Assembly: GCA_002839605.1 (NCBI GenBank)
Contig: PGYK01000005.1
Coordinates: 124,001-188,000, forward strand
DNA from: Methanomicrobiales archaeon HGW-Methanomicrobiales-3
GTDB lineage: Archaea; Halobacteriota; Methanomicrobia; Methanomicrobiales; Methanospirillaceae
DNA: 64,000 nt
Direction: 5' to 3'
In this document: positions 44,835-51,450 of the stretch, in pieces
Numbering within the stretch: position 1 is the stretch's first letter
How the letters are laid out: each line of letters opens with the position of its first letter
Notes under the pieces: generated by a model
What the model was told of the DNA's origin: nothing
Databases searched by the model: none
The model's input: the letters and a program-made list of their open reading frames with translations, nothing else
Position numbers and translations under genes: made by a program

Positions 44835-45650
44835 TCAGTATCCTGTCAGGTAAAAATACCCGCTTTCGTTACGGACATTCACGGGAACCCTGAAGAGATC
44901 TGTAATTTCATTCGCGGTCAGGACATCTTCCTTCTTCCCGTCGCGGATGAACCTGCCATCCTTCATCAGGATCACGCGGGAGATCTCCGGAATGATATCA
45001 TGGATATTGTGGGTTACAAGGATGATTCCGGTGCCGGACTGTGCGACTTTCCTGAGCAGCTGCCGGAACGCGTGGAGGGCATGCAGGTCGAGGCTGTTGG
45101 TCGGTTCATCAAGAATGAGCGTTTTCGGGTCATGCACCAGTGCCCTGCCGATGAGCAGGCGCCGGGACTCCCCGCTGGAGAGTTCCGTCATGGGCCGGTC
45201 AGCGAGGTGTTCAATCTCCAGAAAGGAGAGGATCTCATCCGCCTTCCGGTACATAGCCGGTGTTATCGTCTGGTTAAAGAGGCCGATACTGGAAAAGAAA
45301 CCCGAGAGGATAACTTCGCGACCGGTGATGTCACGGGTGAAGGCGAACTGGAGATCGTTAGAAACGACACCAAACGTTGAGCGGAGGGCAAAAACATCCC
45401 ATATATCCTTACCCTTGATGCGGAAGATGAGACCTTTGGCGTTTGGATCCGGATAGAGTTCGCGGAGGACAGTTTTGATAAACGAGGACTTCCCGGCTCC
45501 GTTAGGCCCGAGAATGGCAATATGTTCCCCTTCAGTAATGGTAACCGAGAGTGAAGATAAGGCTTTCTTCGTCCCGATGTAAACGTCAAGATTGGAAAAT
45601 TCCAACAGCGGCATTGGCGGTTTTTTCCGGCTGTGGGATGAAGGGGTCAT
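44835..45650 (-). CDS. ABC transporter-type ATPase without permease (271 aa)
   Basis: Walker A GPNGAGKSSF (about residue 48), signature LSSGESRRLLIGRAL, Walker B LILDEPTNSLDLHAL and the H-loop VTHN are present. It most resembles ATPases of the ModF/iron-complex (FecE-like) group. No permease or binding protein lies near; the start overlaps the stop of the MBL/ATPase-like gene (ATGA), so it is co-transcribed with the STAS-containing signalling operon. Its role is unknown. Confidence 0.88.
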   Translation of the reverse strand: MTPSSHSRKKPPMPLLEFSNLDVYIGTKKALSSLSVTITEGEHIAILGPNGAGKSSFIKTVLRELYPDPNAKGLIFRIKGKDIWDVFALRSTFGVVSNDLQFAFTRDITGREVILSGFFSSIGLFNQTITPAMYRKADEILSFLEIEHLADRPMTELSSGESRRLLIGRALVHDPKTLILDEPTNSLDLHALHAFRQLLRKVAQSGTGIILVTHNIHDIIPEISRVILMKDGRFIRDGKKEDVLTANEITDLFRVPVNVRNESGYFYLTGY

Positions 45651-47389
45651 AGGATTGCCGGAACCGAGATTTCAAACATCTGTATACCGCCATCACTTTG
45701 GATCACAAGACTGCCACCAGCCCTCTGTGCAAGACCCTTCAGGAACCGTGCGGTCCGGGGCTCATACGAAACGCCACCCTGGGGGATATCGCCACTGAAT
45801 GTGAGAGTGATCTTCTCCTCCCGGTTCATCAGTTCGATCCGGATCTGCCCGGTCATGGTCCCCACGAGATCCTCAACAATATATGTCAGGAGGTCAGTGA
45901 GACGATCGCGGTCGACCAGAGCATTGAACTCCGAATTTTCCGCGTGAAACACAACCTCTACATCCTCAAGGATTGGACGGGTGCCGATCCGCGAAAGCAG
46001 GATCTGGGCAAATGCCTCCTCGTCATCACCGCTCGAGAGGAGGTCCTCATCCGAGCAGGCCGGAACCGCAAGACCGGTCACCAGCGCTTCGATAAGAGAT
46101 CTTATCTCGCAGACCGCGATCTCGCACGGGGGGGTGAACCCCCGCAGCGTTGTGGTGTAATCCGAGAGCAGGCGGCTCGCCCGCAGGGCAAGGTCCGGGT
46201 CGATGATACGGGCAAGATCATCCTGTGCAAATGACCGCTGAAGTTTTGCAATTACCTGCCCGGCTTTGAGTGCCAGGTGCATGGAAACCGCATCACCGCG
46301 CTGGTGGTGCTCCCCCGCAAAATCCCGGAATGCAAGGAGAAGTTCATCAACCACATCTTCCCGCATCAGGGAGGTGGTTTTTTCCGCCAGGTCCGATTCG
46401 CCCAGTTCATCCATAACATAGGAGACATAGAACAAGCGTCCGGCCATCACCGTGAAGAGCTCATTGACCTGCTCCATACTGTCCTCTGCAAATTCTGCAG
46501 CCCATGCAGCCCTCTCGCTGTTGAGTTCAGCAATGTCATCCAGCGCAAGGGCTTCCTTTTTTACTGCTGCAACCATCCGTATCGCATCCGGTGCAGTAAT
46601 CACCCGGCCATGACCGGGACAGACCCTCGTAATGCCCCCGTGGGAAAGGAGGGATCCAATACCGGTCAGGGAACGGACCAGATTTTCCTGGGACCACCCG
46701 GTTAAACCGGCAATCCCGGGGCTTGCAGCAAAGAGGAGATCCCCGCAGAAGAGATGCGAACCCATGCGGATGCAGATACTGTCAGGGCTGTGACCGGGGG
46801 TGTGATAAACCTCGAGTTCCGGGCCGGGACCGAACCGGATTGTCTCCCGGTCCATAGTTACAGGGGCATCACCCAGCGTATCGCGCGTGATGGTGATCTC
46901 TGCGCCATTGGGAAACGCGAGATGGCCGGGAATTCCCTGGCAGGAGGATCGATTGCGGGTCAGGAGCGGAAGCGCGATGTTCATCGGGGTTACAGGAGTG
47001 TTCAAAAGGGTACCCTGCGTTATCCCTCCGTCACCCTGTTCAAGCGCAACTGCTCCGGCTTCCTGCACTGCAAAGATAACGGCTTTGGCATAGGCAAAGG
47101 CCGGGACGGACTGGACCCCGATAAAGTGGTCAATGTGGGCATGGGTCAGGAAGACAAAGACCGGGCGATCCTTCTCTTCACGGCAGGTTTGGATGATTTT
47201 TGAGAAAGCTTCAACCTGATCGGCGATTCCGCCGGGATCGAGGAGGATGAGAGCATCCGCTGTAGCGATAAGATAGGAATTGGAGGAGATGGTATCGATC
47301 TTCCGGATCAGCGGGTAGATTACAGCCCCGTCAGCCCCCGGTATCGGTTGCCACACTAAGGAGGCGAGCTGGTCGTCACCAGCCGGCAA
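45647..47389 (-). CDS. Metallo-beta-lactamase domain fused to a degenerate histidine-kinase-like ATPase (580 aa)
   Basis: Residues about 15-275 are an MBL hydrolase domain: THAHIDHFIG (zinc ligands), HTPGHSPDSICI, LFCGDLLFA and PGHGRVI. The C-terminal 300 residues are largely helical and end in a domain resembling a kinase ATPase fold (FNALVDRDRLTDLLTYIVEDLV, FSGDIPQGGVS, KGLAQRAGGSL), but the N-box asparagine and G-box are missing, so ATP binding is doubtful. The start codon is uncertain; I chose a TTG preceded by GAGG, while a TTG at 47419 would also be possible. It overlaps the STAS gene before it and the ABC gene after it. Confidence 0.78.
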   Translation of the reverse strand: MPAGDDQLASLVWQPIPGADGAVIYPLIRKIDTISSNSYLIATADALILLDPGGIADQVEAFSKIIQTCREEKDRPVFVFLTHAHIDHFIGVQSVPAFAYAKAVIFAVQEAGAVALEQGDGGITQGTLLNTPVTPMNIALPLLTRNRSSCQGIPGHLAFPNGAEITITRDTLGDAPVTMDRETIRFGPGPELEVYHTPGHSPDSICIRMGSHLFCGDLLFAASPGIAGLTGWSQENLVRSLTGIGSLLSHGGITRVCPGHGRVITAPDAIRMVAAVKKEALALDDIAELNSERAAWAAEFAEDSMEQVNELFTVMAGRLFYVSYVMDELGESDLAEKTTSLMREDVVDELLLAFRDFAGEHHQRGDAVSMHLALKAGQVIAKLQRSFAQDDLARIIDPDLALRASRLLSDYTTTLRGFTPPCEIAVCEIRSLIEALVTGLAVPACSDEDLLSSGDDEEAFAQILLSRIGTRPILEDVEVVFHAENSEFNALVDRDRLTDLLTYIVEDLVGTMTGQIRIELMNREEKITLTFSGDIPQGGVSYEPRTARFLKGLAQRAGGSLVIQSDGGIQMFEISVPAIL

Positions 47390-47708
47390 GCGCCTCGCCC
47401 TCAGAGGGATAAATTGCAAAGATGGAGGTGAACCCGGCGAGCTTAAGGATCTTTAAGACCTCGGGTGCAAGGCAGCACAACCCGAATTTATCTCCCGGGT
47501 TTTTTAATTTCTTTGCGGTTGCAAGCAGCACCCGGAGGCCACCGCTGCTGATGTACGTCACACCGGCAAAATTTAACAGGATTTGCCGTTTCTGGTCATC
47601 GATCTGCCGGTTGATTGCCTGTTCAAGTTCCGGTGCGGTTGATGTGTCGACCCTGCCAGTAACAGACAGGACAATTTTTCCTTCGCGGTCAGCGGTTGTG
47701 ATATCCAA
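47376..47708 (-). CDS. STAS-domain anti-anti-sigma-factor-like protein (110 aa)
   Basis: A complete single STAS domain: VLSVTGRVDTSTAPELEQAI, ILLNFAGVTYISSGGLRVLL and AIYPSEGEAL. The SSGG segment holds the serine that RsbW-type kinases phosphorylate in bacterial SpoIIAA/RsbV. It is the first gene of a minus-strand operon with the MBL and ABC genes. Archaea have no sigma factors, so its partner must be another protein, perhaps the kinase at 49722. Confidence 0.88.
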   Translation of the reverse strand: MDITTADREGKIVLSVTGRVDTSTAPELEQAINRQIDDQKRQILLNFAGVTYISSGGLRVLLATAKKLKNPGDKFGLCCLAPEVLKILKLAGFTSIFAIYPSEGEALAGW

Positions 47709-47940
47709 GGTATTCCCCCACCGGTAACGTAATGCCGGAAACTTCTTCTTTATTGTCAGTATTTTTTAAAAGATAATCCTATCCCTCATCTGGCAGGCAT
47801 TCCCCGGTATTCCCAGCAGGGGAACCGACATTGGGGGGCATGAAGACACCTCTCCCGCGAGACTCTATTGCGGGGATTGAGCGCTATATGTCCAAAGCTG
47901 GTGAGGAAAATCCTTAACCATTCAGCACCCGTGTTAACGT
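47709..47940. other. Divergent intergenic region
   Basis: 232 bp between the STAS operon and the KTSC gene. Two possible TATA boxes (TTTTTTAAAAG near 47762 and AACC-TTAAC-like sequence near 47910) and short imperfect hairpins (ACCCCG/CGGGG-type) are visible. No gene. Confidence 0.4.
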
Positions 47941-48168
47941 ATGGTGGTACTTCTGGAACGATTGCCCGTTACATCCCGGATCCTGCGCTCTGTAGGATAT
48001 GATGAGGAAAAAAAGATCATGGAGATCGAGTTTACTTCAGGACTTGTGTACCAGTTCCTGGTGGTTCCTCCCAAAACATATGCAGATCTTATGCATTCGC
48101 CAGAGATTGGCAAATATTTCTCCGAGAAGATCCGGCCAAAATTCCAGACAAAACAGGTATTTTCCTGA
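47941..48168 (+). CDS. KTSC-domain protein (75 aa)
   Basis: The whole protein is one KTSC domain: RILRSVGYDEEKKIMEIEFT, then YQFLVVPPKTYADLM and the FSEKIRPKF end. The domain occurs alone or linked to replication and nucleic-acid proteins and is thought to bind lysyl-tRNA synthetase C-terminal partners; function here is unknown. The start is the only ATG near the end of a plausible promoter. It is short but well defined. Confidence 0.8.
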   Translation: MVVLLERLPVTSRILRSVGYDEEKKIMEIEFTSGLVYQFLVVPPKTYADLMHSPEIGKYFSEKIRPKFQTKQVFS

Positions 48169-48244
48169 TTCCCTCAAAAGGTGCGGGTTGCAATCGAAAA
48201 GAGAAAACGAGGAACATTTATTTTGTTGTTCTCTTCCTCATTTC

Positions 48245-48266
48245 CGCAATAATTGCGAGTTTTTTT
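48245..48266 (+). terminator. Hairpin and T-run after the KTSC gene
   Basis: The 13-base palindrome CGCAATAATTGCG (48245-48257) is followed within two bases by seven T residues, an intrinsic-type terminator on the plus strand between the KTSC gene and the phosphatase gene. Confidence 0.5.
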
Positions 48267-48336
48267 CCAACAGATCTCTCAACCTGACCCTTTATGAGTA
48301 AATGTGTGTAAATTCTATAATACCGGAATCCTGACT

Positions 48337-49719
48337 ATGGACACCTCGATCCTTTCTTCCCTGCTGGTCCTCCTGCAACTCATCTGTGTGATAATCGTTG
48401 TCGCCTATCTCCTCACGAGGAGCCGGATCTTCCCGGAGATCCTTGACGGTCATCCCACGTTCAAGACCCAAGTCATCCTGATTCTGCTTTTTGGCGCCCT
48501 ATCAATCTACGGTACCCTGAGCGGTATCGATTTTTTAGGAGCGCGCATTAATGTCCGCGATCTGGGCCCCATGCTCGCCGGGCTCCTCGCCGGACCCTGG
48601 GTTGGACTTGGAGCGGGCCTTATCGGGGCAGCCCACCGGCTGACTCTTGGCGGGTTTACCGTTTACTCCTGCTCGATTGCAACGGTTTTTGCCGGGCTCT
48701 TTGGCGGGCTTATCTGGCTCCACCAGAAACGAAAATTTGCCGGCACAACCATCGCGGTGCTCTTTGCGATCCTCATGGAAGGGTTCCACATGGCACTCAC
48801 CCTTGCCGTCTGCCAGCCACTCGATCAGGCAATCGCTGTCGTATCCATGGTATCCCTCCCGATGATTCTTGCAAATGCTGCAGGGATGTTCGTCTTCGCA
48901 TCCATGGTGGAGAATATCCAGAATGAGCGCAAGATGCAGGCTGAGCGCGACACGCTGATGCGGGAGATCGAACGCAAGAATACCGAACTTGCCATCGCTG
49001 CCGAGATCCAGCAGAGTTTCCTCCCGGATACGATTGCCCAGATCGAAGGATACGAGATTGTGGGAAAAAGTGTCATGGCAAAAGAGGTTGGCGGGGACTT
49101 TTTCGATGTTATCCCGCTCGAAGTCCTCCCGCTGGGAAAAGACCAGATCGGGATCATGATCGCGGATGTCTCCGGCAAGGGAATTCCAGCCGCGTTGTTC
49201 ATGGCACTCTCCCGTATCGTGGTCCGGGTTAATGCAACCTGGTACGGGAGACGGCCCGCTGCCGCCATCCGGGATGCCAATACCATCATCTCAAACGACT
49301 CGAAATCCGGTATGTTCGTAACCCTCTTTTACGGATACCTCGATTCCGGGAGCCGGACACTCACGTACGTCAATGCCGGTCACAATCCTCCTATCCACTA
49401 CCGGGCCTTAGATGGCACCCTCGCCGAGCTTGCTGCAACCGGTATCGCGATGGGGGTTCTCGACAATGCCGAATATACGCAGGAGACCGTGCAGCTTAAT
49501 CAGGGAGATATCTTAATCCTGTATACGGACGGAATTACCGAAGCAGAGAATGCAAAGCAGGAGATGTTCGATCTCGAACGGCTGGAGAAGGTGATCCTCG
49601 CGTCACACAACCTTCCGGCAAAAGAGATGAGCACCGAAATCCTCAACGCAGTCCGTGAATTTTGCGGCGAGTATCCGCAATCAGATGACATCACCCTCAT
49701 GATTATCCGGAGCCTGTAA
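48337..49719 (+). CDS. Membrane SpoIIE-type PP2C phosphatase with LytS-like sensor (460 aa)
   Basis: The first 200 residues hold six hydrophobic helices of the 5TMR_LYT sensor type (ARINVRDLGPMLAGLLAGPWVGLGAGLI). A coiled linker leads to the PP2C/SpoIIE domain with the metal-binding aspartates VGGDFFDV, DVSGKGIPAALFMAL, NAGHNPPI, LYTDGITEAEN and DDITLMII. It should dephosphorylate a phosphorylated STAS protein in response to a membrane signal. It directly precedes an RsbW-like kinase gene, with which it forms an operon. Confidence 0.92.
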   Translation: MDTSILSSLLVLLQLICVIIVVAYLLTRSRIFPEILDGHPTFKTQVILILLFGALSIYGTLSGIDFLGARINVRDLGPMLAGLLAGPWVGLGAGLIGAAHRLTLGGFTVYSCSIATVFAGLFGGLIWLHQKRKFAGTTIAVLFAILMEGFHMALTLAVCQPLDQAIAVVSMVSLPMILANAAGMFVFASMVENIQNERKMQAERDTLMREIERKNTELAIAAEIQQSFLPDTIAQIEGYEIVGKSVMAKEVGGDFFDVIPLEVLPLGKDQIGIMIADVSGKGIPAALFMALSRIVVRVNATWYGRRPAAAIRDANTIISNDSKSGMFVTLFYGYLDSGSRTLTYVNAGHNPPIHYRALDGTLAELAATGIAMGVLDNAEYTQETVQLNQGDILILYTDGITEAENAKQEMFDLERLEKVILASHNLPAKEMSTEILNAVREFCGEYPQSDDITLMIIRSL

Positions 49720-49721
49720 CC

Positions 49722-50138
49722 ATGGATCCCCCCGTTACCCTGAAAATAAGTTCAGATATCGCAGAGATCCCGGAGGTTTCTGCAAGGCTGGAAGAGCTGA
49801 TGGAGGCTTACGGGTTTGCCCCGGAAGCTATCCTCGATACCCAGCTTGCAGTCGAGGAGGCAATCACCAACATCATCGTTCACGGGTATAAAAGGCCGGA
49901 TGGTGAGATCCAGATTACGTGCTCACGGGTGAGTGACGCAATTGAGATCCGGATTGCGGATTCTGCACCACCTTTCGATCCCCTGTCACTTCCCGAACCG
50001 GACCTTTCCAGCACGGTGAGTGAACGGCGGATCGGAGGGCTGGGAATATACCTCATCCGCCGGGTGATGGACGGGTTCTTTTACCGGTATGAAGACGGGA
50101 AAAATATTCTCACCCTCATTAAAAAAAAGGCTGATTGA
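49722..50138 (+). CDS. RsbW-like anti-sigma/serine kinase (138 aa)
   Basis: A stand-alone HATPase_c domain: the N-box AVEEAITNIIVHGYKRPD, the DSAPPFDP motif and the G2-like ERRIGGLGIYLIRRVMD. In bacteria such proteins phosphorylate STAS partners and bind sigma factors. The start is two bases after the phosphatase stop, so they are co-expressed. Its archaeal target is unknown. Confidence 0.92.
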   Translation: MDPPVTLKISSDIAEIPEVSARLEELMEAYGFAPEAILDTQLAVEEAITNIIVHGYKRPDGEIQITCSRVSDAIEIRIADSAPPFDPLSLPEPDLSSTVSERRIGGLGIYLIRRVMDGFFYRYEDGKNILTLIKKKAD

Positions 50139-50145
50139 ATAAGAA

Positions 50146-51450
50146 CTACTCTTTTGTGATCGTCTGGATATAGGCAATGCCGATCTTGGCCTTCCTGAGC
50201 CGGGTGGAGTCAAGGAGATGGCGCATATCAGCAAATTCGCCCTCGCTGACGATCTTCTTCACCTGCGTGTTGAGGTCGAGCGATGGATCGTATGGGATAT
50301 TCTTAAACACCACCCCGTGGTTGTGGAGGTACATCTCTTTCCCGGCTCCCTTGTTTAACGGGTTTGCGTAATAGATAGAGGCAAGATTCTCTTCGCTGAA
50401 ACCGGAGAGGTCGTGGGTGAGATCGATCCCGATACCGAAACTGACCAGCGTGTCGCCCTTGTAGGAAGATGCGGTATCAGCTGCAACCCATTCATGGAGG
50501 TGAGTGGGGGCCATGATCGATTGCCCGTCCGCGGGTGTGGAACCGGCCACCGGTGCTTTTTTAAGACCTGAACTGGAAAGGCTGTCAAGGACCCCCCAGA
50601 TGGTGATCGCAACCACGCCGCGGTACGTCTTCACCCGCTCTTTTGCCGAGGAGAAGATTGTCCGGTAGATATCAGCGATGGAAACCCCGTTTGCATTCTC
50701 GGTATCGAGCGTGAAGTACTCGTTGAAGGGGCCGTCCAGGGTAATATTGTAACCCGTGTAGACCGGGACATCCCCCCCAGTGTCCAGGGGAGTGAGGAAG
50801 TCGGGGGTATTGTTGCCGTCAGTGGGCAGCCAGACCATCGAGCCGTGCAGCGTAATCATCTCACCAAGGAGCGGGAGCGCATCCTCAACATCCGCACCAA
50901 GCGCCCCAAGACCGAGCGAATAGTTCACTTCCGAGAACTTCTTGGTCTTAACGTCCGATTCGGTGATGGTTGCATAGAGCACTTTTTTTAAGTCCCCAAG
51001 AACCCGGAGGGCCGGGGGTGTGGTCATCCAGCCCGGCTCGATCGTCAGGTTCACGCCTTCCGCTGCAATCTTTTTGTAGAATATCTCGTTGAAGAGCGAC
51101 GGGTTTTTGCGCTTCAGTACAATATCACGAACCGCCTCTTCGGTTGTCGGGAAGATGTCAAAGACCGTGGTGAACCCGGCCATGTCGAGGACTTTTAAGG
51201 GGTACTCCCCGACATTGCTCAGGGCAAGACGCCCGTTTCTCCGCTTCATCTCACGCTTTAATCCATTGAATGTCCTGATGCCCCCGCTGCTCAGGTACGG
51301 TGAGCCTGCAAGGTCCACAACCAGTTCCCGATCATCGTCATGAAGGGCTTCCCGGGCCCAGGAGTCGAGCTGCTGTGCCCCGAATGCATCGAGACGGCCT
51401 GTTACAAAAAAGATAAGGACGCCGTCCTTCCTCTCGCTTCGTGCTTCCAT
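50146..51450 (-). CDS. STAS domain fused to a large unknown domain (434 aa)
   Basis: The first 110 residues form a STAS domain (VTGRLDAFGAQQLDSWAREAL, LVVDLAGSPYLSSGGIRTF, VFDIFPTTEEAVRDIV). The remaining about 310 residues are a conserved-looking alpha/beta domain with several histidines (MAPTHLHEWVAADTA, MYLHNHGVVFKN) and repeated GxG turns, not recognised as a known enzyme. The gene ends eight bases after the convergent kinase gene. The C-terminal part could be the sensor or output of the STAS switch. Confidence 0.78.
   Translation of the reverse strand: MEARSERKDGVLIFFVTGRLDAFGAQQLDSWAREALHDDDRELVVDLAGSPYLSSGGIRTFNGLKREMKRRNGRLALSNVGEYPLKVLDMAGFTTVFDIFPTTEEAVRDIVLKRKNPSLFNEIFYKKIAAEGVNLTIEPGWMTTPPALRVLGDLKKVLYATITESDVKTKKFSEVNYSLGLGALGADVEDALPLLGEMITLHGSMVWLPTDGNNTPDFLTPLDTGGDVPVYTGYNITLDGPFNEYFTLDTENANGVSIADIYRTIFSSAKERVKTYRGVVAITIWGVLDSLSSSGLKKAPVAGSTPADGQSIMAPTHLHEWVAADTASSYKGDTLVSFGIGIDLTHDLSGFSEENLASIYYANPLNKGAGKEMYLHNHGVVFKNIPYDPSLDLNTQVKKIVSEGEFADMRHLLDSTRLRKAKIGIAYIQTITKE

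Follow-up and report, generated by a model that had tools for sequence, protein, structure and literature searches.

A partner switch of Methanomicrobiales and two linked enzyme-like proteins as candidates for its output

A window of 64,000 nt from Methanomicrobiales archaeon HGW-Methanomicrobiales-3 (contig PGYK01000005.1 of assembly GCA_002839605.1, positions 124,001 to 188,000 of the forward strand; all coordinates without a locus prefix are positions in this window) holds a bacterial-style partner switch, composed of a STAS protein (S), a SpoIIE-type phosphatase with a membrane receptor (P) and an RsbW-like serine kinase (K). Two further proteins are encoded beside it: F, in which a STAS domain is joined to a domain that resembles alpha-acetolactate decarboxylase (ALDC) and PTD012, and M, a metallo-beta-lactamase (MBL) with a degenerate histidine-kinase core. 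F and M depend on K for their occurrence in the order, a solid comparative linkage, and the sequences suggest that the switch may act on these two enzyme-like proteins and not on a sigma factor.

The S/P/K module taken up in the earlier note on this DNA is not new; the set was already described by Anderson et al. 2009 (PMC2686161). Homologues of SpoIIAA, SpoIIAB and SpoIIE were reported there as adjacent genes (Memar_2467-2469, Mlab_1450-1452) in Methanoculleus, Methanocorpusculum and Methanospirillum, with the remark that sigma factors are absent from archaea and that a target could not be assigned; the account is repeated in the Methanoculleus marisnigri genome paper. Our literature search found no paper after 2009 that names the target of the Methanomicrobiales switch. 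The S, K and P of 2009 are the same as here, but F and M are absent from that account, while both are linked to the set in our analysis. The new part is the proposal for the output of the switch.

Results

The genes of the switch and of the two linked proteins are:

47376..47708, - strand: S, stand-alone STAS protein (SpoIIAA/RsbV-like), 110 amino acids (aa), site YISSGGL (Pfam STAS, E 4.8e-20)
48337..49719, + strand: P, 5TM-5TMR_LYT sensor (S-component-fold receptor) and SpoIIE PP2C domain, 460 aa (Pfam 5TM-5TMR_LYT, 7.7e-46; SpoIIE, 2.1e-52)
49722..50138, + strand: K, RsbW/SpoIIAB-like serine kinase, 138 aa (Pfam HATPase_c_2, 1.3e-29)
50146..51450, - strand: F, STAS domain (about residues 1-107, site YLSSGGI) and C-terminal domain (about 125-434) (Pfam STAS, 1.1e-17)
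45647..47419, - strand: M, metallo-beta-lactamase domain and C-terminal degenerate histidine-kinase core, 590 aa (Pfam Lactamase_B, 1.4e-16)

S, P, K and the STAS fusion F, all named in the earlier note, are real and have highly significant Pfam matches, and its reading of them as a partner-switching set that looks functional holds well. P and K form an operon, on the same strand and 2 bp apart, and F is convergent with K, with 7 bp between their stops. The reading frame of P opens at GTG 48304, and ATG 48337 is the better start, giving 460 aa as in relatives. The SSGG phosphorylation site is intact in both STAS proteins, and among the F homologues its serines are conserved as S54 in 71 of 71 and S55 in 70 of 71. 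All four acidic motifs of the SpoIIE-type PP2C phosphatases are present in P (GGDFFD, ADVSGKG, YTDGITE, DDITL). The ATP-site motifs of K are intact, with the ExxxN N-box as EEAITN and with GGLG, a statement that covers the K of the window, as the N-box pattern missed 16 of 61 kinases. S exceeds the cut-off of TIGR00377 ant_ant_sig (77.1 bits against 53.45), and K stays under the equivalog cut-offs of RsbW/SpoIIAB (3.2e-17 with the RsbW model PRK04069, under the curated cut-off). Models of the module match the RsbU-RsbV-RsbW and SpoIIE-SpoIIAA-SpoIIAB structures. The S/P/K core is very probably a functional switch.

The interval given in the earlier note started at 45647, which is the end of M, a gene it does not mention; the genes that it describes span 47376-51450. 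It overlooked both M, which follows the kinase more tightly than F does, and the C-terminal domain of F as a candidate output. M and the 3' end of S share 44 bp, the two genes are translationally coupled at this locus, and they are adjacent in many relatives as well.

Among 58 related loci where the kinase is clear, 51 have S and 45 have P within 3 kb of it, and conservation of this kind excludes a chance arrangement. The S-P-K operon recurs across several families. K is present in 123 of the 185 genomes of the order, M in 99 and F in 90. M occurs without K in a single genome (98 of 99 with K; Fisher p 3e-27) and F without K in three (87 of 90 with K; Fisher p 3e-19), both p values being uncorrected for phylogeny. 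The earlier note made its reading depend on conserved co-occurrence in related genomes, and such conservation is seen. Its core is S-P-K; the linkage of F to K varies, being present in some lineages and absent in others. When neighbours were clustered without bias, the families seen in most genera were S (21), P (16) and M (9), and every other recurring family was found in at most 6 genera, two of these (about 889 and 469 aa) not being identified. Neither a transporter nor a basal transcription factor recurs beside the module in this count, nor does a transcription factor of any kind, with the reservation that the two smaller families were not identified. Of the output types proposed before (an enzyme, a transporter or a basal transcription factor), the first has found candidates in F and M, and for the other two no recurring neighbour was seen among the identified families. 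PADLOC matched no part of the module to a defence system.

K also occurs beyond the order, in 13 genomes that belong to two families; in one of these M, S, P and K are clustered (L223, L230, L231, L233), in the other S-P-K, once together with a long F. Anderson et al. 2009 had the set absent outside Methanomicrobiales, a restriction that no longer holds given these 13 genomes.

None of the 71 members has a Pfam family for the C-terminal domain of F, some 300 residues long, and none matches the acetolactate decarboxylase family PF03306 even at E 1. The AlphaFold2 model of F (pLDDT 88.9) matches, by Foldseek, alpha-acetolactate decarboxylase 1xv2 (E 6.4e-10; TMt 0.63-0.67, with 0.67 for 4bt2) and PTD012 1xcr (E 4.7e-6), in addition to STAS structures for the N-terminal part. 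A profile search of the PDB with F returned STAS structures only, and the relation to ALDC was seen by fold comparison alone. On the predicted structure, the domain shares the ALDC/PTD012 fold; we call it ALDC-like and do not file it as an ALDC, because the sequence evidence is weak and PF03306 gives no match. A weaker match to a DNA-binding PCC-like protein (3htn, E 2e-3) was set aside in favour of the ALDC match.

Four residues of this domain, E197, H376, H378 and H411, are conserved in 71, 70, 70 and 71 of 71 members, in the motifs GE197M, H376-x-H378 and H411. In motif order they agree with E65, H194, H196 and H207, counted along the sequence of 4bt2 (DGE, HxH...H), which we take to be the active-site glutamate and the three zinc ligands of ALDC. 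PTD012 (C11orf54) is a beta-ketogulonate decarboxylase whose zinc is held by three conserved histidines (PMC12435205). ALDC and PTD012 share with F the predicted fold and the GE(M/L) and HxH...H motifs, but the identity is 10-16%, the spacing to the third histidine is longer in F, and, in contrast to them, every complete F gene has the STAS fusion, apart from one split case (L174) where S and F lie in separate frames.

The window is from a genome of the Methanoregula type, and the closest named homologue of its F is from Methanoregula sp. UBA11803 (97-98%). A scan of the collection found the F domain in Archaea, Verrucomicrobiota, Lentisphaerota, Kiritimatiellota, Bacillota, Sumerlaeota and one Chloroflexota metagenome-assembled genome. 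The archaeal sequences group in a single clade, separate from the bacterial sequences and with the Chloroflexota genome inside it (support 100/100). In Verrucomicrobiota and Bacillota, too, STAS-F is found beside P and/or K (L158, L167, L176, L177, L180, L183). In a Methanophagales contig F is followed by a TCAD9 domain (conflict-system-associated, kinase-like). STAS-F proteins of about 810 aa occur in L148:2264-4693, L152:2393-4867 and L229; L148 has TCAD9 after F, and L152 is similar. One Methanoregula genome carries a second STAS-F paralogue, cut by the contig end, beside an ABC ATPase (L118:9807-10580), and in L239 and L240 F paralogues adjoin a SpoIIE protein of 635 aa. The genes beside lone copies of F (CorA, MreB, a Glycos_transf_3 enzyme, a peptidyl-arginine-deiminase-like protein) were considered as targets and rejected; they vary between genomes.

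The N-terminal domain of M is of the glyoxalase-II/MBL type, and its metal ligands (HxHxDH/H/D/H; H93, H95, D97, H98, H210, D227 and H270) are complete in 16 of 16 homologues. The M model matches GloB-type MBLs and, for the C-terminal part, the histidine kinases 5c93 and 4u7o. This histidine-kinase core has lost its phospho-acceptor histidine and residues of the ATP site: the H-box position is M, L or I in 16 of 16 and the N-box asparagine is replaced by D, Y, T, E or H, and we therefore regard it as a pseudokinase. A weak match of the MBL domain to ODP, a diiron oxygen sensor, is under the cut-off (E 0.0036). In two loci (L235:2875-6378, L236:5888-9346) the M-type C-terminal domain ends a membrane protein of about 1150 aa with two 5TMR domains, whose transporter-like N-terminal part has no Pfam match; NRAMP-5TMR fusions have been described (PMC11109136). 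The attachment to 5TMR receptors indicates that this domain belongs to the same signalling network.

Fusions of 5TMR with PPM phosphatases in archaea were described in 2024 (PMC11109136), and P is of this kind. The pyruvate site of the histidine-kinase receptor BtsS consists of N70-x-R72, R99, C110 and S113 (PMC10653868). P has N83-x-R85, R112, C123 and A126 (numbered from GTG 48304) at exactly the BtsS spacing, and so keeps three of the four pyruvate-binding residues (R, R, C). N-x-R, R and C at this spacing are present in 39 of 41 P proteins of the order, with Ala (31) or Ser (8) at the position of Ser113. By these residues the ligand of P is likely a small carboxylate; whether it is pyruvate itself is uncertain.

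The whole genome encodes three SpoIIE phosphatases, one of the 5TMR type (P) and two dCache-HAMP-SpoIIE proteins on the same contig, together with three STAS proteins, one stand-alone RsbW-like kinase and one HATPase_c_2-GNAT protein. The single kinase has more than one input and more than one STAS partner around it. The HATPase_c_2-GNAT protein (L002:445-1974, 509 aa) joins an RsbW-like domain to a GNAT acetyltransferase.

Two further genes lie at the locus:

44835..45650, - strand: A, ABC-transporter-type ATPase (Pfam ABC_tran, 5.5e-25)
47941-48168, + strand: KTSC open reading frame, 75 aa, between the divergent S and P (Pfam, 5.7e-21)

A and the end of M share 4 bp, the M-A adjacency recurs in several Methanoregula loci, and S, M and A are probably one operon in Methanoregula. 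Three loci (L065:9256-11664, L066, L103), all from a genus that is probably Methanocorpusculum, have the kinase at the C-terminal end of an 800-aa protein that carries Cthe_2159-type carbohydrate-binding repeats; as a clue to the target this fusion gave no pointer. In another genus, probably Methanocalculus, a true ALDC gene adjoins the kinase gene (L067-L069, G006, G007, G009, G010, G013). ALDC is common in the order and was seen beside K only in that genus, and the adjacency is probably coincidence.

Discussion

We hypothesize that K would phosphorylate the SSGG serine in the STAS domains of S and F, and that P, as a BtsS/LytS-type receptor, would dephosphorylate them when a small extracellular ligand is bound, probably a 2-oxo acid or a similar carboxylate. 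Dephosphorylated STAS domains would then dock on K and phosphorylated ones would stay off. In F the ALDC/PTD012-like and presumably zinc-binding domain is joined to STAS, so that it would itself be switched by phosphorylation and by binding to K. S would partner M, the translationally coupled MBL-fold hydrolase, whose degenerate core has the same GHKL fold as K and is a plausible docking part for STAS or K. The proposal starts from gene content, intact motifs, conserved clustering, the dependence of F and M on K, predicted folds and conserved residues, and from these we infer phosphorylation and docking, metal binding, enzyme activity, the ligand and the direction of control. That F and/or M, and not a transcription factor, are the direct outputs of the switch is in our view about an even bet. 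A tentative idea is that F works in 2-oxo-acid metabolism as an enzyme under phosphorylation control, and equally speculative is a switch class common to both domains of life, in which F would be a STAS-fused zinc enzyme for a substrate derived from a 2-oxo acid, governed by a pyruvate-type receptor phosphatase and with M as second effector.

Several observations weigh against this proposal. The co-occurrence counts carry no phylogenetic correction, and 36 genomes with K are without F and 25 without M, so neither of the two can be the sole output. F usually lies far away from K in Methanoculleus and Methanocalculus. P has Ala in place of BtsS Ser113, a residue without which E. coli does not sense pyruvate. 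The relation of F to ALDC rests on a predicted structure; the profile-profile comparison gave a local match of 20 columns (score 26.6, P 0.007, against at most 18.9 for unrelated profiles), and global hhalign failed. The putative zinc site is read from motifs, and Arg145 of ALDC has no obvious counterpart in F.

The switch could instead control transcription, with K or S sequestering TFB/TFE or a regulator encoded elsewhere, and F and M as upstream sensors. This is the best-known bacterial role of SpoIIAB/RsbW kinases, and a genome with three SpoIIE phosphatases, one stand-alone kinase and three STAS proteins is typical of a global response. Archaea have no sigma factor (PMC2686161), which the earlier note had rightly taken to mean some other output; no transcription factor recurs beside the module, apart from whatever the two smaller families not identified may be, and F and M, the two proteins that follow K, are enzyme-like in fold. 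Since a neighbourhood analysis is blind to unlinked targets, an unlinked transcription factor stays among the candidates, and we give it a minor share of the probability, about one chance in a few. Somewhat less probable is that F and M are input modules, which would bind a metabolite, a metal or a redox ligand and set the free STAS for K, the output lying elsewhere. Ligand-binding sensors have often been made from enzyme folds, the C-terminal core of M is a histidine-kinase relic that elsewhere sits on 5TMR receptor domains, and the MBL domain of M has its weak match to the oxygen sensor ODP; on the other side, the full MBL ligand set in M (16 of 16) and the nearly invariant Glu/His set in F agree with catalysis, and in relatives the kinase-like TCAD9 domain is added after F. 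It is very improbable that the core is a bacterial import which has decayed or lies idle, without a role today. The absence of K from 62 of the 185 genomes and single broken copies of F (G154 and G101, with stop codons or split frames) would agree with this, but the catalytic motifs are intact, the operons are conserved over several families, and archaeal F is one well-supported clade with deep branches.

With the Bacillus systems RsbU-RsbV-RsbW and SpoIIE-SpoIIAA-SpoIIAB the module shares the kinase, the STAS substrate with its SSG site and the PP2C phosphatase; it differs in having no sigma factor, a STAS joined to an ALDC-like domain, a 5TMR phosphatase and an MBL/pseudo-kinase partner. STAS-type switches have been reused for non-sigma outputs elsewhere, as in Vibrio SypA/SypE (PMC8256260) and in Pseudomonas SiaABCD, where a diguanylate cyclase is acted on (PMC8457831), but here the candidate output is fused to STAS (F) or translationally coupled to it (M). 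The LytS-type pyruvate receptors BtsS and YpdA (PF07694) have the 5TMR domain with the N-x-R, R and C spacing in common with P; their output is a histidine kinase and that of P a PP2C phosphatase, and Ser113 is mostly Ala in P.

Conclusions

Why archaea without sigma factors retain anti-sigma and anti-anti-sigma proteins has been a question since 2009, and the candidate outputs F and M, the 2-oxo acids as a candidate class of signals and the conserved residues make it testable in Methanomicrobiales. STAS-F, which is found from Methanoregula to Verrucomicrobiota, may reveal a general kind of partner switching that controls enzymes in bacteria too. If the proposal is true, metabolism would be controlled post-translationally, and not transcriptionally, by such switches in methanogens and in several bacterial phyla.

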